NCBI GenBank assembly: GCA_012512465.1
Contig: JAAZED010000038.1
Coordinates: 1-25,453 of the forward strand
Length of the DNA: 25,453 nt
Reading direction: 5' to 3'
Source of the DNA: Oxalobacter sp.
Lineage (GTDB): Bacteria; Pseudomonadota; Gammaproteobacteria; Burkholderiales; Burkholderiaceae_D
The position numbers and the translations under genes were made by a program. Every line of letters begins with the position of its first letter. Position 1 is the first letter of the stretch. Shown piece after piece: positions 8,402 to 24,959 of the stretch. The notes under the pieces were generated by a model. That model had not been told where the DNA came from. It worked only from the letters and a program-made list of their open reading frames with translations, and made no database searches.

Positions 8402-9130
8402 ATGACAAACGCCATCATTGTTCGTGATTTTGGATTAATGCCTTATGACGTGGTATTTGCGGCAATGAAAGCGTTCACCGGAAATCGAACAGCAGATACA
8501 ACGGATGAAATCTGGCTTTTGGAACACCCGCCGGTTTATACCCTGGGGCAGGCGTCGGATCGTTCTCATTTGCTCGACACGAAAAATATCCCGGTTTTCC
8601 AGGCAGACCGGGGGGGAGAGGTTACCTATCATGCGCCCGGCCAGGCCGTTGTCTATTTGCTGATTGACCTGAAAAGACGGATGGGAAACCGTTTGCTTGT
8701 CAGGGAATTTGTCCGGAAAATTGAGCAGGCCGTTATTGATACGCTGTCTGCCTATCATCTGGCGGGGGAGCGCAAAATGGGCGCACCAGGGATTTACCTT
8801 GCAGCGGATTGGGTCGATCCTTTCTGGCAGGGGGCCAAAATTGCCGCGCTGGGCCTCAAGGTGCAGCGTAACGGCTGCACTTATCACGGACTTTCCCTGA
8901 ATGTTGCCATGGACCTGCAGCCTTTTTCCGGGATCAATCCTTGTGGCTATCCCGAATTGACATCCGTGGATATGAAAACGCTGGGAAAGGACTGTTCGGT
9001 TACTCAGGTGCAGCATGAACTGGCCATGGCGCTGTGCCGCAGCCTGGGCACCAGGGCGGATTTTCAGGACAGTGCCGCATTGCCTGTTGTATTGCAAAGC
9101 ATGGAGGGGGATCTTCATGGCAGAAAGTGA
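8402..9130 (+). CDS. lipB: Lipoyl(octanoyl) transferase
   Basis: LipB moves octanoate from octanoyl-ACP to lipoyl domains, the first step of endogenous lipoate synthesis. Signature elements are [23 protein letters not shown], the conserved lysine in [11 protein letters not shown] followed by [11 protein letters not shown], and the nucleophilic cysteine in [10 protein letters not shown] prefer the ATG at 8402 over 8396 because the AAGG element ends 8 bases before it; the two differ by two residues. The C-terminus carries about 30 residues beyond the catalytic core. The last 14 bases overlap the start of lipA. Confidence 0.93.
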
Positions 9131-10058
9131 AAAACAAAAAGGGGCAGAAAAAACAGCGCGGATTCCGGTAAAAATCGTGCCGGCAGAGCCACTGCCCAAA
9201 CCGGACTGGATTCGGGTGAAAGCCGGGTCGCCATCCACGCGCTTTTATGAAATCCGGGATCTGCTGCGAAAACAGCATCTTGTGACGGTGTGCGAAGAGG
9301 CCAATTGTCCAAACAAGGGAGAATGTTTCGGGAAAGGTACGGCCACCTTTATGATAATGGGGGACAAATGTACCCGCCGGTGTCCTTTTTGTGATGTAGC
9401 GCATGGCCGGCCGGATGCCCTTGATGCGGGGGAGCCGGAAAAACTTGCGCAAACGGTCGCGCTGCTGAAGCTTTCCTATGTGGTCATCACGTCGGTGAAC
9501 CGGGATGATCTGCGTGACGGAGGGGCTTCTCACTATACGGCGTGTATCCGGCATATCCGTGACATATCGCCTGATACCCGGATTGAAATCCTGACACCGG
9601 ACTTCCGCGGGCGGGAGCAAAAGGCCCTGGATATGCTGGGACAGACGTTGCCGGATGTGATGAATCACAATCTGGAAACGGTACCCCGTCTTTATCGTCA
9701 GGCCCGTCCCGGTGCCGATTACGCCCATTCCCTGATGCTCCTGAAACAGTTCCGGCAGCGTTTTCCGGATGTACCGACAAAATCCGGGTTGATGGTCGGC
9801 CTGGGAGAAACCGATGAGGAAATCCTGCAGGTCATGCAGGATTTACGTGATCATGACGTGGATATGCTGACGATCGGGCAATACCTGATGCCGTCGCGCC
9901 ATCATTTACCGGTGACACGCTACGTTCATCCAGACACATTTTCCCGCTTTGAAGAAGCCGCACGCTGCATGGGGTTTGTCCATGCGGCGGTGGGGGCGCT
10001 GGTTCGCTCAAGCTATCATGCCGACCGGCAGGCGCATGAAGCCGGTATTTGTAAGTGA
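9117..10058 (+). CDS. lipA: Lipoyl synthase (radical SAM)
   Basis: LipA inserts two sulfurs into octanoyl groups on lipoyl domains using two [4Fe-4S] clusters. The auxiliary-cluster motif [12 protein letters not shown] is at residues 59-70 and the radical-SAM motif CTRRCPFC at 85-92; the closing RSSYHA supplies the serine ligand. The ATG at 9117 is chosen because GGAGGGGG sits 6 bases upstream and the protein then has 313 residues, normal for LipA; an open frame extends further upstream only because it overlaps lipB. Co-translated with lipB, so octanoyl transfer and sulfur insertion are made together. Confidence 0.95.
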
Positions 10059-10174: not shown

Positions 10175-11833
10175 ATGTTTTGTATACAATGCGAGCAAAC
10201 GCTCAATTCGCCGGTTGCCAAGGGATGTATCTTTGCGCAGGGTATGTGCGGCAAAACAGCCGAGGTATCAGACCTTCAGGATGTTCTTGTTAAATATCTC
10301 CAGGGAATTTCATTCTGGGCGAAGCTGGGTGCCGACTACGGCTATCATCATCCGCAGGTCAACCGCTGGAGTCCCCAGGCATTTTTTTCTACGCTGACCA
10401 ATGTCAATTTTGATCCTGTCAGAATGTATGAATTCATTCAGGAGGCAAGACACTATAAATCGGCACTGGAAAAAGAGGTGAAAGCGGTTGTTGCCGATCA
10501 TTCGGGCGTGATACCGCCATTGACGGTAGCGGCGTTGATGGATATTCCTGCTGCGCAGGAAGCTGTCATCCAGTTTGCCCCCATGGCATCATTAAACCAG
10601 GAAAAAAAGAGTCTGGATGATGTGCTGGGCGCTTACCTGCTTTGTCTTTACGGGCTTAAAGGGGTTGCCGCTTATATGGAGCATGCAGCGGTTTTGGGAC
10701 AAACGGATGATGAGGTTTATGCCCAGTATCATGGCATCATGAGCTATCTGGGTGATTCTCCTGACGATTTGCAGGAGTTGCTTCAGACCGCCCTGCAAGT
10801 CGGGGAGCTGAATTATCGCGTGATGTTCATGCTGGACAAGGGAGAGACATCCCGTTTTGGTGATCCCGAACCTACCCAGGTGAATGTCGGGCATGTCAAG
10901 GGGAAATGTATCCTGGTTTCCGGGCATGATCTTGAGGATCTTTATGAAATTCTCGTGCAAACGCAAGACAAGGGAATCAATGTCTACACGCACGGAGAAA
11001 TGCTGCCGGCGCATGGTTATCCCCAACTGAAAACGTTTAAGCATCTGGTCGGGAATTACGGCACGGCCTGGCAAAAACAGCAGACGGAATTTGCCGATTT
11101 TCCCGGTGCAATTGTGATGACATCAAATTGCATTATCAATCCGGATGTCGGCGGTTACAAGGATCGCATTTTCACGCGCAGTATTGTCGGCTGGCCTGGT
11201 GCCCGCCATATTGTCGGCGAGGATTTCAGCGAGGTTATTGATTGTGCGTTGTCCCTTGAGGGGTTCAGGGAGGATGCGCGTCCCCATCTGATTACCGTGG
11301 GGTTTGGCAGAGCGGCGCTGGCACAGGCGGCTCCTGCCGTGATACAGGAAATCCGGGCGGGTAGCATCAAACATGTCTTTTTGGTTGGAGGGTGCGACGG
11401 AGATAAACGGGATCGCAATTATTACACGGATTTTGCCCAAAAGACGCCGGAAGACACGCTGATGCTGACACTGGCATGTGGCAAATACCGGTTCAATTAT
11501 CAGGATTTCGGCAATATCAACGGTATCCCCCGCTTGCTGGATGTCGGGCAGTGCAATGATTCTTATTCCGCGATTCAACTGGCGCTGGCGCTGGCAGAAG
11601 AGTTCCAGTGCGGTGTTAATGATTTGCCGCTGACGCTGGTTGTCTCATGGTTTGAACAAAAGGCAATAGCGGTTTTGCTCACGCTGCTTGCTCTGGGAGT
11701 CAGGGGCATTTACCTGGGGCCAAGCCTGCCGGTATTTTTGACGCCGGATCTGCTTGAAATGCTGGTCGAAACATTTGATATCCGGCCTATTTCCGATGCG
11801 GACTCCGATCTGAAGGTTATGCTCAATTCCTGA
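10175..11833 (+). CDS. hcp: Hybrid cluster protein (hydroxylamine reductase / NO reductase)
   Basis: Hcp reduces hydroxylamine and, in E. coli, acts as a high-affinity anaerobic NO reductase. The N-terminal cysteines at residues 3, 6, 18 and 25 follow the CX2CX11CX6C spacing of the E. coli-type [2Fe-2S] class, not the CX2C-type [4Fe-4S] class of strict anaerobes such as Desulfovibrio. Hybrid-cluster ligand regions are visible: [49 protein letters not shown] and DVGQCNDSY. Length (552) matches the family. The ribosome site AAGGGG lies 6 bases before the ATG. Expression is likely controlled by the NsrR-like operator at 10118-10140. Electrons should come from the Hcr protein encoded next. Confidence 0.95.
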
Positions 11834-11851
11834 ACAGGCTTTCTACTTTTT

Positions 11852-11885
11852 AAGGCATTTCGCTCCAAAACGGGTGAAATGCCTT
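11852..11885 (+). repeat. Inverted repeat in the hcp-hcr gap
   Basis: AAGGCATTTC at 11852-11861 pairs perfectly with GAAATGCCTT at 11876-11885; wobble pairs extend the stem by about four more, leaving a CAAAAC loop. No T-run follows, so it is unlikely to be a full terminator. It may stabilise the hcp message or set the hcp:hcr ratio. The arms also resemble NsrR half-sites lacking two bases. Confidence 0.6.
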
Positions 11886-11906
11886 GTGAAATACGAGGTA
11901 ACCAGC

Positions 11907-12998
11907 ATGCAGAAAAACAACCCAAATCCAGATGGTTTGACACTGATCAGCACCGTTGAAGAAGCGGCCGATACAAAAAGCTTCTTCTTCAGGCATCCTG
12001 CGACCGGGAAAATCCGGTTCAAGCCGGGACAATTCATCAATATTGGTGTTCAGATAGACGGTAAGCCGCATTATCGTTCTTATTCCATCAGTTCCCTGCC
12101 GGAAGATGAGCTCATGCAACTGACCATCAAACGGGTAGAGGGAGGGCTGGTTTCCAACTGGATGATTGACCAACTGAAGGTCGGCGAGTCGGTCAGCATG
12201 CATGGTGTTGCCGGCGCCTTCAATATCATTGACCAGCCGCCAGCCGAGCATATTGTGTTCATCAGTGCCGGCTGTGGTGTTACACCCGTGATGTCGATGG
12301 CGAAATATATCCTCTCCCACAAAGAGACAGGGGTTAAATCCATCCAGTTCATCCATTGCGCACGAGATCGCGAAAATATTATCTATCAGGATGAAATCCT
12401 TTCGCTGGAAAAAAATCATCCGGATTTCCATGCGTTTTTTTATCTGAGTGCAGCAAGGGAGGATCAGGTTGCTTCTCCCTATCGCGCAGGACGGTTAAAT
12501 AGCGCTTTTTTGTACTCGCATTTGAAAGATATCGTAAATAACAGTTCGGTTTATCTTTGCGGCCCCATGGAATTTATGGACATGGTCAAAAAGGGGTTGA
12601 TGGAAATTCATTTTGATTTGGCCTGCCTTTTTCATGAAGACTTCACTTTCAATTGTGAGGTGTTGCCTGGTTTGGCGGCATTCTCCGTTCAGGAAACGGT
12701 GGAAAATGGTCATGGCGGCAATACATACAAGGTCACTGCGCCGGACTTCGATTTTGATGGGGAAGCGCAGGAGGGCGAAATCCTGCTGGATGTTCTGCAA
12801 AATGGCGGGGTTCCCATCATTGGCGCTTGCCGCGTCGGCCTTTGCGGTGCTTGTAAATGTCGGGTAAAATCCGGCGATGTCAAACTGACAACGGATCCTG
12901 TTGCCAGCGGTATTCTGACACAGGCAGACAGGGAAGAAGGGTATACGCTGGCTTGTGTCAGCCTGGTTATCGATGATGTTCAAATTTCGCTTAAGTAA
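11907..12998 (+). CDS. hcr: NADH:Hcp oxidoreductase (FAD, [2Fe-2S])
   Basis: Hcr passes electrons from NADH to Hcp. Domains in order: FAD-binding ferredoxin-reductase barrel with HYRSYSISS (residues about 52-60), NAD-binding domain with SAGCGVTPVMSM and later YLCGPMEFM, and a C-terminal plant-type ferredoxin domain with GACRVGLCGACKC and a final Cys in TLACVS, i.e. CX4CX2C plus Cys. I use the ATG at 11907 because GAGG lies 9 bases upstream; the frame is open back to 11874 but the added residues are not conserved-looking. It follows hcp by 73 bases, including the hairpin. The two proteins form a known functional pair. Confidence 0.93.
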   Translation: MQKNNPNPDGLTLISTVEEAADTKSFFFRHPATGKIRFKPGQFINIGVQIDGKPHYRSYSISSLPEDELMQLTIKRVEGGLVSNWMIDQLKVGESVSMHGVAGAFNIIDQPPAEHIVFISAGCGVTPVMSMAKYILSHKETGVKSIQFIHCARDRENIIYQDEILSLEKNHPDFHAFFYLSAAREDQVASPYRAGRLNSAFLYSHLKDIVNNSSVYLCGPMEFMDMVKKGLMEIHFDLACLFHEDFTFNCEVLPGLAAFSVQETVENGHGGNTYKVTAPDFDFDGEAQEGEILLDVLQNGGVPIIGACRVGLCGACKCRVKSGDVKLTTDPVASGILTQADREEGYTLACVSLVIDDVQISLK

Positions 12999-13064
12999 AA
13001 GTAAAAAGTCGGGGCAGGCGGATGTTTGTCCGGCAGGTGTTTTACAGGGTTGCAGGGTTCGTTT

Positions 13065-13490
13065 ATGCAACTGACGCAGCAAACTGATTATGCTTTACGT
13101 GTTTTGATGTATGTTGCCGCCAATCCGGACCGGCTGGTGAATATCACGGAAATTTCCGATTTTTACCAGATATCCAGAAGTCATCTGGCCAAAATTGTTG
13201 CCAGTTTGGGGCGCAGCGGGTATCTGAAAAGTATCCGGGGAAATAACGGGGGGATTCGTCTGAAAAAACAGGCGGATGAGATTAATATCGGGGAGGTTGT
13301 GCGCCGGTTTGAGCCGCTGGGAATTCTTGAGTGCATGGGGAAAGGCGGGCGTTGCGTGGTTGCCAGAAACTGTATGCTGAAAAGAATTTTTATAGAGGCG
13401 ACCTCGCGTTTTCTGGAGACAATCGACCAGTACCATCTCAATGACCTGCTTGAAAATGGCATGCTGCTGCAACAGTTCCGGAACCGGTAA
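13065..13490 (+). CDS. nsrR: Rrf2-family NO-sensing regulator, NsrR-like
   Basis: Winged-helix repressor that likely binds an Fe-S cluster and senses nitric oxide. From the ATG at 13065 it is 141 residues and begins MQLTQQTDYALRVLMYVA, the usual NsrR/Rrf2 start; Asp8, a cluster ligand in Streptomyces NsrR, is present. The recognition region ISRSHLAKIVASLGRSGYLKS and the wing RGNNGGIRL are clear. Cysteines at 90, 97 and 103 match the three cluster ligands, but the spacing CX6CX5C is one or two residues longer between the first two than in NsrRs I recall. Placement after hcp-hcr suggests autoregulated control of this cassette. IscR is excluded by the N-terminal sequence and the context. Confidence 0.85.
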   Translation: MQLTQQTDYALRVLMYVAANPDRLVNITEISDFYQISRSHLAKIVASLGRSGYLKSIRGNNGGIRLKKQADEINIGEVVRRFEPLGILECMGKGGRCVVARNCMLKRIFIEATSRFLETIDQYHLNDLLENGMLLQQFRNR

Positions 13491-13580: not shown

Positions 13581-15194
13581 CTAGCGCTGCTCAATCAGGG
13601 CGATATCATCCTCATCGAGCCCGAATGCGTCATAAATAAACTGATCCATTTCACCAGTATATCTGTCCAGGACAAAATTGAAGTCATCAATGTTGGTTTT
13701 TTCCTGCTCAAAATAAGCCACCCACGTCGGGAGGTCATTGGCTGGAATATCAACGCCGAATGACGAGATGATTTCTCTCCGGAAGGTATCAAAATCAAGC
13801 TCAAACCAGTTCAGCAGACGATCACTCAGCTTTGCTCCCAGTTTTTCCGGTGAAAGGTTGAATGCCGTCATACCCTGAAAATGGAGAATACAGTCACGGC
13901 GGTCCTGGGCTTTTTCCATACAGAACTGGGCGATTTGACCGACTCTGCCACGAGAGAGTCCGTCGGCATCGGGAATCGGCAGGGATTCTACATGGTGCGC
14001 CTGTAATTCGTACTTGCCGTCGTCCGTCTGACGGGCCAGCGTGGTAATCAGCTTGGACAGGGCCGTTGAATTCAGGAGACCAAACAGGTAGTAATCCGCG
14101 TTGGAAATGGTGTGACTCTCATTGCCATACTGTGCGAGTTTTTCGCCGATAACAAAGCCCGGTTCGGACTGAATACGGCCGATACCCATACGAAAGTCGG
14201 TAGTGGTGGGGATATCGGTATTTTCCGTATGATCAAGCTCATACCATTTCTGGTCACCTTCCCGCTTCTCGAGTGTTTCCTTGAACTGCTCAAGATATTT
14301 TTTAACAGCAGGATATGCGTCAATATCCACTTTTCCCTTGGGCGTGTAGATGAGCCAGTGAAGGCGGGTACCGGAATGCCATCTTTTCAGGCTGTCTCCG
14401 GGATAAAATGCCTGCAGGATTTCCTTGGATTTCGGGTCTTCCTTCTCAAGCTGGCTATAGGTTTTCTGGTCGATAACAAAGGCATCATTGATACTGACGG
14501 CGGGCCCTGGCTGGATCGGGCCATAAACGTCCTTGAGTGTTGGATGCTTGCGCATCAGCTTGTCCTGCAGCCCGGTGGTAACACTGTCATGCAACCATTG
14601 GGCAATCTTCCCGGACAGCATGTTTTCCGCATTCAGCAGGGTATAAAACCGCTGGTATTCGGTGGCGTCTTCGGCCATTTTTACCAGAGAAAAACGCTCA
14701 TAAGTGGTGCGTTTATGCATCAGCGAATACAGCCTGACCTCATCCAGATTGGAGAGCAGGAAAAACTCCCGCTCAGGCATTTCTTCTGCATGCTGCCGGG
14801 CCAACTGAACCAGGCTCAGCTTTTCGTCACCAGAAACAACATCCAGGCTGGAAGAAGTCGGCCCCATCAGTTTGACGAGTGTTACCATCCGGTTTTTATT
14901 TTTTTCAAACTGTCCGAGCGCTGCGTCAAAGTAGCTGTCCAGTGTTTTCATGTCTTTCAGCGTATAGGCACTGCCGGTGGATTCGGGCTGATATCCCAGG
15001 ATATCCACAAGAATCTTCTGCAGGAATGCCGCATGCTGGGCCGTCTTGTCCTGTTTGTTCAACTCGGCAATGTTTTTTGCCCAGTCCTGAAGAATTTGCT
15101 GGTGGGCAGGGGGAACAGCCCCCTCTTTGAGGACGCTGGTCAAAACCTGTGTATGGAAAAGATTCTGGTTGGTAAAGGTATTTGTGTTTTCCAT
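13581..15194 (-). CDS. Type IIG restriction-enzyme-like protein without methyltransferase domain (TaqI-like C-terminal specificity domain)
   Basis: 537 residues. Residues about 30-200 resemble the N-terminal nuclease region of Type IIG (Eco57I/MmeI-like) enzymes: FLQKILVDILGYQP, DAALG at 90-94, a GP-containing strand at 104-112, then LSLVQLARQHA and FFLLSNLDEVRLYS. The catalytic ElK strand is changed: TLVKLMGP stands where one expects a pattern like aviElKGP, so the acidic residue and lysine are lost by my alignment. Residues about 231-410 match the TaqI-like specificity domain: NDAFVID, LKRW, WLIYTPKG, YPAVKKYLEQFKETLEKR, YYLFGLLNS. The C-terminus (MDQFIYDAFGLDEDDIALIE) matches the family end. 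The usual 450-600 residue methyltransferase with NPPY/F between these parts is absent. The start has AGGA 6 bases upstream. The role is unknown. Confidence 0.72.
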   Translation of the reverse strand: MENTNTFTNQNLFHTQVLTSVLKEGAVPPAHQQILQDWAKNIAELNKQDKTAQHAAFLQKILVDILGYQPESTGSAYTLKDMKTLDSYFDAALGQFEKNKNRMVTLVKLMGPTSSSLDVVSGDEKLSLVQLARQHAEEMPEREFFLLSNLDEVRLYSLMHKRTTYERFSLVKMAEDATEYQRFYTLLNAENMLSGKIAQWLHDSVTTGLQDKLMRKHPTLKDVYGPIQPGPAVSINDAFVIDQKTYSQLEKEDPKSKEILQAFYPGDSLKRWHSGTRLHWLIYTPKGKVDIDAYPAVKKYLEQFKETLEKREGDQKWYELDHTENTDIPTTTDFRMGIGRIQSEPGFVIGEKLAQYGNESHTISNADYYLFGLLNSTALSKLITTLARQTDDGKYELQAHHVESLPIPDADGLSRGRVGQIAQFCMEKAQDRRDCILHFQGMTAFNLSPEKLGAKLSDRLLNWFELDFDTFRREIISSFGVDIPANDLPTWVAYFEQEKTNIDDFNFVLDRYTGEMDQFIYDAFGLDEDDIALIEQR

Positions 15195-15407
15195 AGATAT
15201 TCCTAGATGAAAAAAGTGTTAAGGTCAGAACAAGCCGACAGATGCCGACGATGACATGAACCCGTTATAAGGTACGGATAACCGATAGTGTAATCGTGAA
15301 AATTGAAATAGCACAATATGCAGGAAAAGATTTGCGCCATGCGTTAACAAAAGCCGGGAATAGCCGATAAGATAACTATCCTGAAAAGCGTTTCACAAGA
15401 ACTGTCT

Positions 15408-15467: not shown

Positions 15468-17288
15468 ATGAATAACATAATGTCATCGATCAAATGGAAT
15501 GAAAGCCTGAATCTGGGTCTGGGCGAAATTGATACGACGCACAGAAGACTGTTTGAGCTTGTCCACGAGCTGGCAAGAACAGAATCGGGAGAGTCAGGAC
15601 AGATTTTTGATGACTTGCGACGTTATGTACTGTATCACTACCAGCACGAAGAAGAATTGATGCAATCGCATCATATTGATCCAGAATACCAGAGAGCACA
15701 TCTGGTGTTCCACAGTTATTATATCAGTACGATTGATCAAATTGGAAGCCTTATTAACGAAGGCTTTATGGTTGAGCTCGACCGCATTCTGATTTTTCTG
15801 CTGAAATGGTTGAAATGGCATATTTCCAGCATGGATGTTCTGCTGGCAAAAAAGATTCATGAGCCGGATTCCGAGCGGGTGCAGCAGGAAATGGCGGTAT
15901 TGAGGGCAGGGGACTTCAGTGATGTGTATTATGAGCTGGGCCAGAAAATTCTGGAACTTTCCGAGCTCGCCCGGCGGTTGGACAATGAAACCTCTCGCCG
16001 CAAGCTCATTGAGCTGGATTTTGCGCTTTCCAATGCCCGCCTGCATGCCATGGTCAATTTTTCCCACAGTTGGGAGTACTGGGAAGAACCAAATGGAAAG
16101 ATCATTTATACCTCTCCCTCCTGCGAGCGGATCACCGGTTATGCCGCCGGGGAGTTTATTGAAAATCCGGAGCTCATCTACGAGATTATCCATCCGGAAG
16201 ACCGTCATATCATGGAGGCGCACCGCCTGGACAAAGAGATGCATGAGGATGGCGAACACGAGTTGCCATACCGTATTATCCGGCGGGATGGCACCGTCAA
16301 CCGTGTCGGCCACAGCTGCCATGCGGTTTACAGCAGTGCCGGCCGTTTTCTTGGTCGGCGGGGGAGCATTCGCGACAGAAATGAGCGGTATTTCCAGGAC
16401 GAGCAACAGCGTCTGGCTGAAACACTCTTTACCTCCGTTAATGAAGCGGTTCTGGTGACAGACCAGAAGGGGCGTATTCTTCGCGTCAATCCTTCCTTTA
16501 CCCGGATTACGGGCCGAAGTTTTGAGGAAGTGCATAATCAGGATGCGACCTGCCTGTTTGATGATGGTGACGTGCCCGGCCATATCCAGCAGACAGCCGA
16601 TCGGGTGGAAACAACCGGCTTCTGGCAGGGCGAGATTTTGGGACGGCACAAGGACGGTCATATTTACGATGGCTGGATTTCCATTTATTGCGTCAAGAAT
16701 ACCGAGGGTCAACTCGTAAACTATGTGCTGGTTTTTTCGGATATCAGCGAGCGCAAAAAGAACGAAGACCGGATCTACCGTCTGGCCCACTTTGACCTGC
16801 TGACCGGCTTGCCCAATCGTGCGCTGCTGCTGGATCGTCTCCAGCAGGGGTTGCTTAAGGCAAGGCGGGAAGCGGCGTTACTGGCGGTCATGTTTGTTGA
16901 TCTGGACAAGTTCAAGCTCGTCAATGACACGCTGGGCCATTATATTGGCGACTTGCTGCTCAAGGGGGTAGCTGAGCGGCTAAAAGCGTGTCTTCGCGAA
17001 TCGGACACCGCTGCACGCATTGGCGGTGATGAGTTCATTGTCCTGCTTCCGGCCGTCCAGTCAGAAGACGATGCCCGGCGGGTCGGGAATAACATGCTGG
17101 ATCGGATTCGCGAGGACTACCTGCTGGATGGCAACAGGGTAAATATTGGTGTCAGCATTGGTATTGCGCTTTTTCCCATGCATGGCAATACGCATGAAGA
17201 GTTGATGACGAATGCGGATGCCGCCATGTATCAGGCCAAGCATGGTGGCGGACCTTCCGTTATTTCATACGGCGAACTGCAGAAATAG
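15468..17288 (+). CDS. Diguanylate cyclase with N-terminal hemerythrin and two PAS domains
   Basis: Predicted cytoplasmic c-di-GMP synthase controlled by a di-iron oxygen- or NO-binding domain. Residues 1-130 are a bacteriohemerythrin with all seven ligands: His25, His57, Glu61, His78, His82, His118 and Asp123. A linker helix leads to PAS 1 (about 185-305, with YTSPSCERITGY and IIHPEDR) and PAS 2 (about 315-435, with NPSFTRITGRSFEEV, ending in SDISERKKNEDR). The GGDEF domain (about 436-600) has DLLTGLPNRALLLDRL, VDLDKFKLVNDTLGH and an intact RIGGDEFIVLLPA; RESD five residues before GGDEF is a canonical inhibitory I-site. No EAL domain and no membrane segment. An alternative ATG at 15480 would remove four residues; neither start has a strong ribosome site. 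Confidence 0.93.
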   Translation: MNNIMSSIKWNESLNLGLGEIDTTHRRLFELVHELARTESGESGQIFDDLRRYVLYHYQHEEELMQSHHIDPEYQRAHLVFHSYYISTIDQIGSLINEGFMVELDRILIFLLKWLKWHISSMDVLLAKKIHEPDSERVQQEMAVLRAGDFSDVYYELGQKILELSELARRLDNETSRRKLIELDFALSNARLHAMVNFSHSWEYWEEPNGKIIYTSPSCERITGYAAGEFIENPELIYEIIHPEDRHIMEAHRLDKEMHEDGEHELPYRIIRRDGTVNRVGHSCHAVYSSAGRFLGRRGSIRDRNERYFQDEQQRLAETLFTSVNEAVLVTDQKGRILRVNPSFTRITGRSFEEVHNQDATCLFDDGDVPGHIQQTADRVETTGFWQGEILGRHKDGHIYDGWISIYCVKNTEGQLVNYVLVFSDISERKKNEDRIYRLAHFDLLTGLPNRALLLDRLQQGLLKARREAALLAVMFVDLDKFKLVNDTLGHYIGDLLLKGVAERLKACLRESDTAARIGGDEFIVLLPAVQSEDDARRVGNNMLDRIREDYLLDGNRVNIGVSIGIALFPMHGNTHEELMTNADAAMYQAKHGGGPSVISYGELQK

Positions 17289-17321: not shown

Positions 17322-18026
17322 CTATTTCTTTTTCGCCGTGTTTTTCTGGCTTTCCTGCCGCTCTTTCAAAATGCGCGCTACCAGATTGTCCATCACCTTC
17401 ATGGTCATGACCTGGGCTTCTTCTTCCGTACCTGAAAAATTATTGCCTTCGCTGACAATGGCAAGAGAGGTCACATATCTGCCGTCGATCACAATAGTCG
17501 GAACACCCTCGATCTGGTAGGCCGATTGCATCTGAACAGCACCATCACACAAGGACTGTACGGTAAAAGAGCGGTACATTTCCAGGAACTTGTTCCGGTC
17601 AATACCGTTTTTCTGCACATAATCCGCTATCTGCGTTTCATTCCTGAGCCGGGTCCGCTTTACCTGGACGGCATCAAAAATTTTATGGTGCAGCGAGTTG
17701 GTCATCTTGCCCATGGCTGACAGGGTATAAAACAGCCGCTGCTGCAGGGCCATATTGTCGTTGAAGTTGATATGGACCCGTTTGAATGTCACATCGCGAT
17801 TGTGTTTTTCCATCCACTTGACGAGTGCCGCATCAAATAAATAACAATGCGAACAGAAGTAGCCGAAAAATTCGATGACTTCCACTTTTTTTCCGGTTTC
17901 AGCCGGCAGCGGCTTTTCCAGTGTCAGGTAATCCACGCCATTTCTGGGCGCATCGGGAGAGGACACTGCCATACAGGTGACAATACTGAGTCCGATAGCG
18001 AGAAAAAGGCGGTGAATTTTTTTCAT
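17322..18026 (-). CDS. dsbA: Thiol:disulfide interchange protein DsbA family
   Basis: Periplasmic oxidase that introduces disulfide bonds. A signal peptide (MKKIHRLFLAIGLSIVTCMAVSS) precedes a thioredoxin fold with the active site FGYFCSHC (Cys58 and Cys61) and the cis-proline loop EGVPTIVIDGRY. The dipeptide Ser-His differs from the Pro-His of E. coli DsbA; CSHC is usual in Burkholderiales DsbA. The tail after the fold is unusually rich in lysine and glutamine (QESQKNTAKKK). AGGGAA lies 7 bases before the ATG. It begins 17 bases after the SPOR gene, which itself follows argS, so the three form one transcription unit. Confidence 0.92.
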   Translation of the reverse strand: MKKIHRLFLAIGLSIVTCMAVSSPDAPRNGVDYLTLEKPLPAETGKKVEVIEFFGYFCSHCYLFDAALVKWMEKHNRDVTFKRVHINFNDNMALQQRLFYTLSAMGKMTNSLHHKIFDAVQVKRTRLRNETQIADYVQKNGIDRNKFLEMYRSFTVQSLCDGAVQMQSAYQIEGVPTIVIDGRYVTSLAIVSEGNNFSGTEEEAQVMTMKVMDNLVARILKERQESQKNTAKKK

Positions 18027-21655: not shown

Positions 21656-22423
21656 ATGACAGCAGGTATTACATGGGGACATCAGGAAGATGACGATTAT
21701 CTGGGCGACTCCGCCAAGATAGCCGCTTTCGATATGCCCAACCTCTGGGACCCGGATAATGACCCACACCCCAACACGAAAGTCATGAACACTCTTATGG
21801 ATTTCGGGAAGAGATACATCAACAGCGATCCGACTGGTGGTACCGGCTTTACGCCGACAGTCTTAAAACCGGCACAACATGATTCGGGCACCTACGCACC
21901 CCCATCACAGCAAACCAACAATCAGGGTTTGCTTGCCAATACGGAAAAACCGGCAATATCACCTTCACCGGCAATAAAGTACGCCAGCGTGAAGGTGCCA
22001 GATATGAGCAAACCCACAGTCACACCGTATTCGTCTGCCAGCAGCACGTCACCATTCAGCGCCAACCTGACAAAAACACTTGGTTCGATAGACGAAGCTG
22101 ACACAATGGCAGGAAGTGCAACGGGGGATTTACTTGGTGCGATTGGCGGGCAATATCTCAAGCGCGGAAACCATGATGTATTTGAGATGCCCAACCGGGC
22201 TGAAGCGACTTTTACCGGTGATCTCCTGGGGATGACAGCAAAAGCAACCGGCAGGGCAATCATCAACTCAGGTGGTGATGTTGCACAGCATGACAGTCAG
22301 ACGGATTACAACCTGCATCACAGCCAGAACCCCGAAGCTTATCGGCAACAGGTGAGCAAAACACTGAATGACGCTGGAGATGCATGGATGCCATACGACC
22401 GCCAAAGTTGCACTCGGCATTAA
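21656..22423 (+). CDS. Orphan protein, N-terminal part (probable frameshift)
   Basis: 255 residues, no family recognised. The ribosome site AAAGGA lies 7 bases before the ATG, so translation is likely. The N-terminal 50 residues are acidic; residues about 60-145 are low complexity, rich in Ser, Thr, Pro and Ala (PSQQTNNQG, VPDMSKPTVTPYSSASSTS); a Gly/Ala-rich stretch follows (GSATGDLLGAIGGQYL, GDLLGMTAKATGRAI). No signal peptide and no membrane segment. The last residues (QSCTRH) look out of frame, and the adjacent frame continues into the next ORF with protein-like sequence, so the two are probably one gene of about 430 residues broken by one base near 22398-22402. Composition resembles phage or effector proteins, but this is only an impression. 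Confidence 0.6.
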   Translation: MTAGITWGHQEDDDYLGDSAKIAAFDMPNLWDPDNDPHPNTKVMNTLMDFGKRYINSDPTGGTGFTPTVLKPAQHDSGTYAPPSQQTNNQGLLANTEKPAISPSPAIKYASVKVPDMSKPTVTPYSSASSTSPFSANLTKTLGSIDEADTMAGSATGDLLGAIGGQYLKRGNHDVFEMPNRAEATFTGDLLGMTAKATGRAIINSGGDVAQHDSQTDYNLHHSQNPEAYRQQVSKTLNDAGDAWMPYDRQSCTRH

Positions 22424-22955
22424 TGGACTATTAACTGATGCCGAAGCAAAAATGCCGACAGCAGTTGAGGTGGCGCATGAAGTCAGGCGTAATCGCTGGG
22501 AGCGAGAAAATGCTATTGGCGATATGATGACACGCCGGGATATTCGTACCGATACACCAGAAAACCAAGCCAGTGACACAGAAGCCTATCTTTCCCAGAC
22601 ACTGATCGGAACGCACTGGGTCAATCTTGCCAAGGTCTATGCCTATCGGGGAAAGCCATTCATGATGTCCAATGCCGTGGATATGCTGGACAAATCGTTT
22701 GATACCTGGGCAGACAACATCATTGAAAAAGGCGACCATAGTTATTTGAATGCCCTCATGAAAACCATCCGTGAAGATCATCCAACGACTGATGATGTGT
22801 TGATTAACCTGATCGCCAAATTCATGGGAGGAAATAATGGCGATGCTGTCCTGTTCCTGTGGGATAGCATGAAAGAGGCTGACAGGCACGAAATGATGAA
22901 ACAGGTCAAGGAACGCCAGAAAACCAAACTGGGAATCGAAAGCGAAAAGAAATAG
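22368..22955 (+). CDS. Orphan protein, C-terminal part (probable frameshift)
   Basis: 195 residues in the frame one base ahead of the upstream ORF, overlapping it by 56 bases. From about residue 12 (AKVALGINGLLTDAEAKMPTAVEV) it is a helical, charged protein ending ERQKTKLGIESEKK. The first residues (MTLEMHGCHTT) look like read-through of the wrong frame, and no ribosome site precedes the ATG at 22368. No family is recognised. A terminator 38 bases after the stop closes the unit. If the upstream ORF was once continuous with it, the junction would read MPYD-AKVALGING. Confidence 0.55.
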   Translation: MTLEMHGCHTTAKVALGINGLLTDAEAKMPTAVEVAHEVRRNRWERENAIGDMMTRRDIRTDTPENQASDTEAYLSQTLIGTHWVNLAKVYAYRGKPFMMSNAVDMLDKSFDTWADNIIEKGDHSYLNALMKTIREDHPTTDDVLINLIAKFMGGNNGDAVLFLWDSMKEADRHEMMKQVKERQKTKLGIESEKK

Positions 22956-23101: not shown

Positions 23102-23956
23102 GTGACCATTCTCAAACATGTATTTGTCTCCATACTCCTGACTACCGTCTTTGCCATTGCGTTCCTTCCGGCACATGCTGGCGACACGGAAGATGCTATC
23201 AAACTGCTGAAAGCCAAACAGCCAGAAAAAGCATTTCAATTCTTCAAAAAAGCGGCAGAAGCAGACGATGCAGAAGCGCAAGCCTATCTTGGGGGGATGT
23301 ATCTGGAAGGGACAGGAACCCAAAAAAACCTGAGAATGGCAGCACTCTGGATGAAAAAAGCGGCAGATCAGGGAAATGTCACAGCAGCGCATGACATGGG
23401 CCATTTCTATGAAGAAGGCATCGGTGTATCAAAAAACCTTGAAAAAGCTGCTGTGTACTACAAAAAATCCGCTGAACTCGGTGATAAGGATGCGCAGAAC
23501 AAAATGGGGGAATACTACCTTGAGGGTAAAGGCGGCTTAACAAAAAATGAAATCGAATCTTTCAAGTGGTACATGAAATCAGCAAAGCAGGGCCATCCCG
23601 TATCAGAATACAGTGTCGGCAGGGCTTATGATCTCGGTGAAGGCGTCAAACAGGACAAAAAAGAAGCGGAAAAATGGTATACAGCTGCTTCCAAGCAAGG
23701 CCATGCAGCATCCATGAACAATCTGGCATATCTTTACCTAAATGGTGACGGTGTGAAAAAGGATATTGAAAAAGGGCTTTCACTAACACGAACTGCTGCG
23801 GAGAAAGGTCAGGTTGATTCACAGTATGCCCTTGGTACCTATTATGCAGAAGGCCGGTTTGTGAAGAAAGATGTAGGGGAAGCCAAAAAATGGTTTGGGA
23901 AAGCTGCGGCACAAGGTGACGAGGAAGCAGAGAAGGAACTCATGAAGTTGAAGTAA
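23102..23956 (+). CDS. Exported Sel1-repeat (SLR) protein
   Basis: 284 residues with a signal peptide (VTILKHVFVSILLTTVFAIAFLPAHA, cut before GD). The rest consists of about six Sel1-like repeats of 36 residues, each with the pattern A-x-LG-x-x-Y-x-x-G-x-G-V-x-K-D-x-x-x-A-x-x-W-x-x-x-A-A-x-x-G, for instance AYLGGMYLEGTGTQKNLRMAALWMKKAADQG. Such proteins are helical scaffolds for protein-protein contacts, often in the periplasm. I use the GTG at 23102 because GAGGA lies 6 bases upstream and it gives a standard signal peptide; the ATG at 23066 would add 12 residues before it. The IS481 element begins about 7 bases after the stop. Confidence 0.88.
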   Translation: MTILKHVFVSILLTTVFAIAFLPAHAGDTEDAIKLLKAKQPEKAFQFFKKAAEADDAEAQAYLGGMYLEGTGTQKNLRMAALWMKKAADQGNVTAAHDMGHFYEEGIGVSKNLEKAAVYYKKSAELGDKDAQNKMGEYYLEGKGGLTKNEIESFKWYMKSAKQGHPVSEYSVGRAYDLGEGVKQDKKEAEKWYTAASKQGHAASMNNLAYLYLNGDGVKKDIEKGLSLTRTAAEKGQVDSQYALGTYYAEGRFVKKDVGEAKKWFGKAAAQGDEEAEKELMKLK

Positions 23957-24959
23957 ATTGAATGTCAACTATTTCATAAAGTGTGCGATTGACAGACATC
24001 ATTTCAATTTTCTGACAGCCAAATCGCGGATAACTCTGTTCCTGAATGCGCTCTTTTTCTGGATAAAAGTTTTCCAGTACTTTTTCAGAAAAAGGTGTAT
24101 CGTCGATCAACTCGTGAAATCGATCCACAGGTGTTTTTCCATTATGGGCACTGTGAGGACGGTCCCAGTTGTAGTAATGCTGCCACTCTGCCAAAAGGGA
24201 GTGTAGCTCTGGATCATCCAGTCTGATGGTGGCATAAAATTCAGCTTGGTCTGTTTTCTGCGAACGTTCAACCTTTCCATTCAGATGCGGAGAGCCGGGT
24301 TTGTTGGGGCGAAATTTGATGCCGTATTCCCTGAATTTTTCCTGGACCTTGATGGCAAAAAATTCCTGACCTCTGTCAGTCTGAACGCGCTGAACAGGAA
24401 AGGGCATTTCATCTACCACATGCTCAATAAAATCAAGAGTATTGGCTGCTGTGCGACGGCTGTATAGCCTCAAGACCCTGTAACGGGTGCAATCATCTAT
24501 GGCCGTGTATTGAAATAGTCCTGACGCTATTTTGCAGGTGTCCATCTGGACACGATCACCGGGAATCGGGCGCTCATACCGGATAAATCCTGCTTTTTTT
24601 CGGATTTTCAGAACAGGTTTTACCTGGTTGCGTATGAGTATTTTGTGGATAGTTGCCAATGACAAAGACAGATCGTGGAGGCGCATTATTTCAGCCTGAA
24701 TCCTGCGAGCACCAAGATTACGGGAACGCCGTATTTCAAGGATGATTTCTTCTTCCTGAGGGCTGACTTTTTGGGCTGGTGAATTTTTTGGGCGGCGACT
24801 CTGGCTGACAAGTCCTGCTACCCCGTGTTCCTGATAGCGTTTCCACCATTTCCTCAGAGTTGGTCGGGATATGCCGCATCTTCGGCAGACCAACCCGGCA
24901 TCACCCGTTTTCTCATAGAGTTGCACCCACTGTAATCTCTGTTGTATTTCTCGTTTCAT
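23940..24959 (-). CDS. IS481-family transposase with a probable C-terminal frameshift
   Basis: 339-residue DDE transposase. The N-terminal helix-turn-helix (LVCRRCGISRPTLRKWWKRYQ) is followed by an rve integrase core with the catalytic triad Asp in QMDTCKI, Asp in QTDRGQEF and Glu in NGKVERSQKT, and YYNWDRPHSAHNGKTP, the usual IS481 end of the core. After ERIQEQSY the reading frame continues for about 27 residues that do not look conserved and stops inside the 3' end of the Sel1 gene. Removing one base at 24028-24029 (TATCCGCGA to TATCGCGA) restores YRDLAVRKLK and a stop at 23999, the ending I recall for close relatives. The core is intact, so activity is possible. Confidence 0.9.
   Translation of the reverse strand: MKREIQQRLQWVQLYEKTGDAGLVCRRCGISRPTLRKWWKRYQEHGVAGLVSQSRRPKNSPAQKVSPQEEEIILEIRRSRNLGARRIQAEIMRLHDLSLSLATIHKILIRNQVKPVLKIRKKAGFIRYERPIPGDRVQMDTCKIASGLFQYTAIDDCTRYRVLRLYSRRTAANTLDFIEHVVDEMPFPVQRVQTDRGQEFFAIKVQEKFREYGIKFRPNKPGSPHLNGKVERSQKTDQAEFYATIRLDDPELHSLLAEWQHYYNWDRPHSAHNGKTPVDRFHELIDDTPFSEKVLENFYPEKERIQEQSYPRFGCQKIEMMSVNRTLYEIVDIQFTSTS

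Follow-up and report, generated by a model that had tools for sequence, protein, structure and literature searches.

A Type IIL/IIG restriction-enzyme shell without methyltransferase or intact nuclease motif, maintained in Oxalobacter and possibly turned into a binding scaffold

What remains of a restriction system is in most known cases a solitary methyltransferase or specificity subunit, and both kinds still read DNA. Type I specificity (S) subunits combine two target recognition domains with spacer helices and an M-subunit partner. The orphan adenine methyltransferase CamA of Clostridioides difficile, for instance, has a methyltransferase and reads DNA and carries no nuclease part. Type IIL/IIG enzymes such as MmeI and DrdV feature a nuclease-like fold, a TaqI_C-type target recognition domain (TRD) and a C-terminal helical domain, together with a helical spacer and a methyltransferase. 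A stretch of 25,453 nucleotides from Oxalobacter sp. (contig JAAZED010000038.1, the whole of which is referred to as the window) encodes a 537-aa protein, hereafter the shell, in which the first three of these parts stand in the same order. It has neither the helical spacer nor the methyltransferase; its nuclease motif is degraded and its TRD acidic, and the gene is present as a single copy at a fixed locus. This pseudo-restriction enzyme is the converse of the orphan methyltransferases, differing from CamA-type proteins in having no methyltransferase domain, and to our knowledge it works like no characterised system that can be named. The reading put forward here, to which we give slightly less than an even chance, is that of a domesticated pseudo-restriction enzyme that neither catalyses nor reads DNA and instead serves as a binding scaffold by contacting proteins.

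The shell gene and its parts, all numbered on the window, are the following:

13581..15194, minus strand: shell gene, 537 aa, candidate pseudo-restriction enzyme without methyltransferase, judged from the open reading frame (ORF), homologues, genus distribution and the ratio of non-synonymous to synonymous substitution rates (dN/dS)
14610..15167, minus strand: nuclease-like N-terminal domain, residues 10-195, catalytic motif lost
14541..14609, minus strand: junction helix, residues 196-218, at the site of the missing spacer and methyltransferase (BLASTP blocks overlap at shell residues 201-207)
13965..14540, minus strand: TaqI_C-type specificity (TRD) fold, residues 219-410, with drifted base-contact columns (profile matches)
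13584..13964, minus strand: C-terminal helical domain, residues 411-537, with an excess of shell-only fixed residues (15 of 27; Fisher p 0.0003)

The ORF starts with ATG, has no internal stop over its 537 codons and is preceded by an AGGA ending six bases before the start codon, in agreement with the intact frame and ribosome site described in the initial annotation of this gene. Comparison by BLASTP with FL138, a full-length relative (locus L111, a 1146-aa frame in the Burkholderiales genome G138), gave two blocks, shell residues 10-207 aligning with FL138 22-224 at 36% identity and shell residues 201-535 with FL138 804-1137 at 35% identity. Residues 225-803 of FL138, bearing DPACGSG and NPPY, are unmatched in the shell, which thus misses ~580 residues. 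As seen in FL138, this stretch is the MmeI-type helical spacer, detected below threshold (PF20465, 21.6 vs 27 bits), and the methyltransferase, matched by Eco57I at 527-691 and by N6_Mtase at 474-707 (Pfam positions numbered from the Met, 14 residues into the 1146-aa frame). In the alignment the methyltransferase domain with motif I and NPPY is a gap in all 33 shells and present in all 118 full-length relatives. The latter comprise 116 aligned sequences of 950 aa or longer (from the best 120 of 4180 matches, 119 besides the query) plus FL138 and P0041; P0041 was dropped from charge and entropy counts (n=117), and 61 of the 118 rows were used in the tree.

Profile comparison matched shell residues 203-537 with the specificity regions of CamA, M.BseCI, MmeI and BrxX, residues 19-209 with HsdR and residues 31-194 with DrdV nuclease domains, the latter two matches indicating that the nuclease-like N-terminal fold is retained. 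Among solved structures, only M.BseCI matched the shell profile significantly (residues 213-414, E 4.9e-8); it is itself a methyltransferase, a domain that the shell does not have. Residues 199-536 also matched the PADLOC model REase_MTase_IIG (PDLC03609) at 6e-13. TaqI_C reached 21.9 bits in the window protein, under its cut-off of 26.5, and was found at E 0.1 or better in 14 of 20 shell members. The order of parts and the absence of the central methyltransferase, both proposed initially, are borne out; the nuclease-like part does end near residue 200, and the specificity part, placed from residue 230 onwards, begins nearer 219. On sequence comparison, the shell is a descendant of the Type IIL/IIG restriction-modification family. 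In the BrxX/PglX proteins of bacteriophage exclusion (BREX) systems, as described in PMC11842806, a methyltransferase domain is accompanied by a positively charged lower-jaw groove; in the shell, by contrast, both the TRD and the C-terminal domain are acidic.

The loss of the nuclease motif was followed residue by residue in the 33 shells aligned with the 118 full-length relatives, 32 of the shells having a residue at the positions concerned:

14925..14927, minus strand: D90, the sole nuclease-motif residue retained throughout (32/32 shells)
14871..14873, minus strand: K108, replacing the catalytic Glu (Lys in 31/32 and Arg in 1/32 shells, Glu in 118/118 full-length relatives)
14865..14867, minus strand: M110, replacing the catalytic Lys (Lys in 0/32 shells vs 118/118 full-length relatives)

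The strand reading VKLM, already singled out as degraded, corresponds to the FELK strand of the relatives, with Glu changed to Lys at 108 and Lys to Met at 110. Every full-length relative holds the D, E, K, Q and Y of the motif, whereas the Gln is lost in 29 of 32 shells (kept in three) and the Tyr in all 32. Of the PD-(D/E)XK catalytic set (D, ExK), only D is intact. In MmeI, replacement of D70, E80 or K82 by Ala abolished endonuclease activity (PMC4833311). Asp90 and Lys108 may form an ion pair at the former catalytic-metal site of the shell and so keep the dead fold stable.

Since two defining features fail, the methyltransferase and the nuclease residues, it would be wrong to class the shell as a restriction enzyme despite its Type IIL/IIG descent, and the public name "type II restriction endonuclease", carried by at least three shells (P0006, P0007 and P0013), is misleading. 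The literature on Oxalobacter restriction-modification and on methyltransferase-less or domesticated Type IIG enzymes gave no description of the shell family, which is not proof of absence, and no paper was found on the structure entry Esub1; in the accessible portions of their main texts, the proteome paper PMC4764995 contains neither "restriction" nor "endonuclease", and PMC9812493 contains none of "restriction", "methyltransferase" and "defense".

Homologues of the shell were listed from a search of 5.8 billion proteins, in which 7996 candidates were scored. In total, 42 were obtained, comprising 33 shells, of which 31 are 507-538 aa long and two (P0025 and P0032) are partial and do not enter the 31-member analyses, and nine others (P0034-P0042) that are fragments of full-length enzymes or other architectures and stand outside the shell counts. 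A1 contributes 20 and A3 seven of the 33 shells. The methyltransferase-less form is therefore conserved at the same length, the point on which the initial annotation had asked for homologues, although the count alone does not prove longer forms missing, because the length window of 0.55-1.75 times the query excludes enzymes above ~940 aa. Among the nine others, P0038 and P0039 carry TaqI_C domains with TPR-type repeats and no methyltransferase domain in the precomputed list, P0039 additionally bearing PF13676, which we take to be TIR_2; they represent another methyltransferase-free use of a TRD, possibly in defence.

The shell was found in 9 of 13 Oxalobacter genomes, as open frames of 525-555 aa plus two pieces in G008, where it is split by contig ends, and is intact over 522-537 codons in eight loci. 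Synteny places it at an ancestral locus with two borders:

17322..18026, minus strand: dsbA-like gene, upstream border
9117..10058, plus strand: lipA, downstream border

In L010-L015 (L015 being the locus of Oxalobacter formigenes HC-1) the shell lies between the argS-dsbA side and lipA, in G040 the gene order around it is that of the window, and the two G008 pieces adjoin the dsbA-like gene and lipA, respectively. L010 (JAMPER010000001.1) is titled an Alistipes senegalensis metagenome-assembled genome (MAG), probably wrongly; it shows the Oxalobacter gene order, and its shell is 96% identical to that of an Oxalobacter MAG. Four genomes, G001, G003, G004 and G010, have no shell. The absence from G001 is uninformative as its contig ends before the locus, and in G003 the shell is missing from the assembly and the locus is broken by contig ends plus an ORF that presumably resembles a transposase (the last 1.7 kb of the contig being unread). 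G004 and G010 have an empty site, the dsbA-like gene standing directly next to lipA with no gene between. A full-length gene at this locus, which in close strains would have spoken for a recent deletion, was seen in none of the relatives read, and the claim of a distinct methyltransferase-less form stands.

In a tree with 61 full-length rows, all 31 full shells group together as a single clade (support 0.997), and the shell tree and the five-gene neighbour tree have the same topology over eight taxa. A recent strain-specific deletion is ruled out, since the shell form is genus-wide and monophyletic. Rooted with outgroups, the argS tree divides the genus (support 95) into the window group (89) and the HOxBLS/COB56/HC-1 group (100), and both groups flanking the genus root hold shell-bearing genomes. 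The argS tree nests the clade without shells (G003/G004/G010) within the second group (89), and the five-gene tree puts it alongside that group; either placement implies that the shell was present in the genus ancestor and was lost once, as reconstructed from these trees. Outside the genus, a profile search of two overlapping samples found no shell in the 398 other genomes drawn from the order or the 368 from the class. Matches occurred in 8 of 399 genomes of the order and 13 of 369 of the class, the own genome being counted in both, and none of the 7 and 12 other matched genomes had both halves in a ~540-aa frame; both halves matched in G138, G493 and G701, in frames of 1068-1146 aa.

The substitution rates point in the same direction as the distribution. 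The shell dN/dS is 0.094 at a dS of 0.175 in the NALB7823/NALB7813 pair, the sole informative one, as dS is saturated for most pairs and the window and G040 shells are nearly identical (dS 0.011). In comparison, the values are 0.07 for argS, 0.10 for dsbA, 0.18 for lipA and 0.32 for lipB, and within the shell they are 0.10, 0.08 and 0.09 for the N-terminal domain, TRD and C-terminal domain. By this measure the shell is a maintained gene under purifying selection, like the neighbouring core genes, in keeping with the earlier statement that it is not a decaying gene. A slowly decaying remnant without function, which the loss or seeming weakening of three ancestral activities and the existence of one clade without the gene could suggest, is hardly credible in the face of the eight intact loci, this low dN/dS, an upstream element conserved in one clade and 27 newly fixed residues.

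Another explanation is that the shell belongs to a split restriction-modification system and that the gene for the companion methyltransferase lies elsewhere, as split Type IIB and Type I systems exist and N6 DNA methyltransferases are present in several Oxalobacter genomes. A methyltransferase in trans was sought with PF02384 and PF07669 across the 13 Oxalobacter genomes, and the 25 frames matching PF02384 (four cut by locus ends) were compared all-against-all by BLASTP. No N6_Mtase/Eco57I-type DNA methyltransferase is common to the complete shell-bearing genomes G002, G011 and G040 (other classes were not searched). The sole N6_Mtase match common to shell-bearing G002, G011, G007 and G008 is a 293-352-aa protein, of which the two copies scanned (G002 and G011) score as PrmC above the curated cut-off; as PrmC is a protein methyltransferase, this shared match leaves the odds of the competing readings unchanged. 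The other pairs, including one of 35% identity between G011 and G007, link single shell-bearing genomes only, and G000 (85% complete) has no N6_Mtase match and one short Eco57I match. With the nuclease motif lost and no neighbour gene as well, a split system is very improbable.

The retention of a nuclease-like fold after loss of the motif would also fit an anti-restriction poison, in which the dead nuclease domain pairs with that of an incoming Type IIL enzyme and prevents the dimer needed for cutting; MmeI must cleave at least as a dimer of nuclease domains (PMC4833311). Pfam MmeI models detected MmeI-type enzymes in four Oxalobacter genomes, the shell-bearing G005 and G006 and the shell-less G004 and G010, numbers too small for any association. 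Their loci are L056 (G005), L071 (G006), L066 and L070 (G004) and L067 (G010), the enzyme of L070 being without most of the MmeI N-terminal domain. Among the N6_Mtase matches of the complete shell-bearing genomes G002, G011 and G040, in contrast, no MmeI-sized frame was found. Arms-race genes moreover rarely show vertical, genus-old inheritance, which is that of the shell, and such a poison is accordingly judged improbable.

The initial annotation had suggested a possible DNA-binding role. The TRD net charge averages -7.0 in shells (-10 to -4, n=31, all acidic) and +3.4 in full-length relatives (-3 to 9, n=117), and the net charge of the whole shell is -15 to -25 over ~530 residues, hence acidic and thinly spread; DNA-mimic anti-restriction proteins (Ocr/ArdA) carry a strong negative charge that imitates DNA phosphates. 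At position 391, 95 of 117 full-length relatives have Arg, and 24 of 31 shells have an acidic residue (Asp or Glu). As a control, Oxalobacter frames were measured from 150 residues past NPP to the end (two of eight frames, L059 and L065, were dropped as NPPY/F/W was not found); five confirmed as MmeI-type carry -4 to +3 and a sixth, longer one -6, compared with about -17 for the shell TRD plus C-terminal domain, so the acidic shift is not a genus-wide composition effect.

The base-contacting positions differ as well. In CamA, 13 base-contacting TRD residues are named in PMC8187626, and 10 of them were mapped by hand onto the shell via profile and pairwise alignments; R425 was left out owing to an insertion, and S472 and A473 were added later for a 12-column test. 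Y642 and K645 of MmeI (PMC4833311) fall on contact columns 229 and 232, a weak mapping at 10.3 bits. Across the 31 shells the 10 contact columns have a mean entropy of 2.23 vs 1.32 for the TRD (permutation P 0.0001, 20,000 draws), whereas the full-length control (n=117) showed 1.41 vs 1.41 (P 0.49). The high entropy recurs with the 12 columns and when the shell clades are taken separately (n=20, P 0.003; n=11, P 0.005). A DNA-binding regulator or decoy, whose specificity domain would read sequence and whose dead nuclease, with Lys at the metal site, would clamp DNA uncut, fits poorly with contact columns this variable in a TRD acidic in 31 of 31 shells. Furthermore, MmeI grips DNA between its TRD and methyltransferase, as reported in PMC4833311, and the latter half is missing in the shell. 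The DNA-binding role initially proposed is thereby weakened and regarded as unlikely, with room left for a weaker or altered DNA contact.

Conserved novelty in the shell concentrates at the other end of the protein. In total, 27 residues are fixed in shells (29 or more of 31) and rare in full-length relatives (10% or less), of which 15 lie in the C-terminal helical domain (residues 434, 441, 443, 444, 446, 494, 497 and 498 among them), a domain occupying 127 of 528 alignment columns; the TRD holds three, and the nuclease-like domain seven, including K108 and F89 beside D90. This pattern is consistent with a C-terminal helical surface that binds a conserved protein partner. Under the scaffold reading, an ancestral Type IIL enzyme would have lost its helical spacer and methyltransferase and its nuclease motif would have degraded, and the remaining shell would act as a binding scaffold whose contacts are most likely made via the C-terminal helical domain. 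The partner would most likely be an assembly of DNA-processing proteins, because the shell fold derives from one. The fuller statement, that an enzyme stripped of cutting, methylating and DNA reading has been selected as a structural protein of the genus with a new conserved C-terminal interface, is held a little more tentatively still.

Several observations weigh against the scaffold reading. No partner was found, and the shell is dispensable in one clade, from which it is missing, apparently through loss. Conserved basic TRD columns are kept in shells at 11 of 17, compared with 56 of 101 other conserved columns (Fisher 0.60); as basic columns are kept like others, the charge shift cannot be put down simply to a loss of conserved residues that contact DNA. 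The high contact-column entropy could reflect changing DNA specificity rather than none, and 116 of the 118 full-length sequences were chosen by closeness to one relative, P0036. In view of the retained basic columns and of this second meaning of the variability, DNA reading by the shell is described as likely lost or weakened, and is not called absent. Should the scaffold reading be true, a phage-defence enzyme can become an ordinary cell part by losing every ancestral activity, and the shell would offer a clean case for asking what restriction-enzyme scaffold surfaces bind. The natural empty sites in G004 and G010 provide a ready phenotype comparison.

Upstream of the shell ATG, the clade-A genomes share the element TTTCACGATTACACTATYGG, present in the window as follows:

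15282..15301, minus strand: conserved upstream element TTTCACGATTACACTATCGG, once per genome in 5/5 clade-A genomes searched

With up to 3 mismatches allowed, the element occurs as a single copy in all five clade-A genomes (two of one species) and is absent from the two clade-B genomes, and a reversed control pattern gave one occurrence, in one genome. It may act as a promoter, although it was not among the hits of a promoter scan.

In the window species, the shell is separated from dsbA by a GGDEF gene and from lipA by an Rrf2-Hcr-Hcp group, so the shell gene stands alone; no partner gene is adjacent, as had been noted before. The former (window 15468-17288) encodes a PAS-PAS-GGDEF protein with a sub-threshold N-terminal hemerythrin match, and is also found in L012 and G040 and not at that place in L010, L011 and L013-L015. 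The latter (window 10175-13490) encodes a prismane-type Hcp, an Hcr-like reductase and an Rrf2-family regulator, which we take to be a cluster of the nitrosative-stress type, and among the loci read it occurs at that place only in the window's species (the window and G040). Further along, two overlapping ORFs of 255 and 195 aa at 21656-22955 have no Pfam match at E 0.001, and an intact-looking integrase-core (rve) transposase ORF lies near the window end at 23940-24959.
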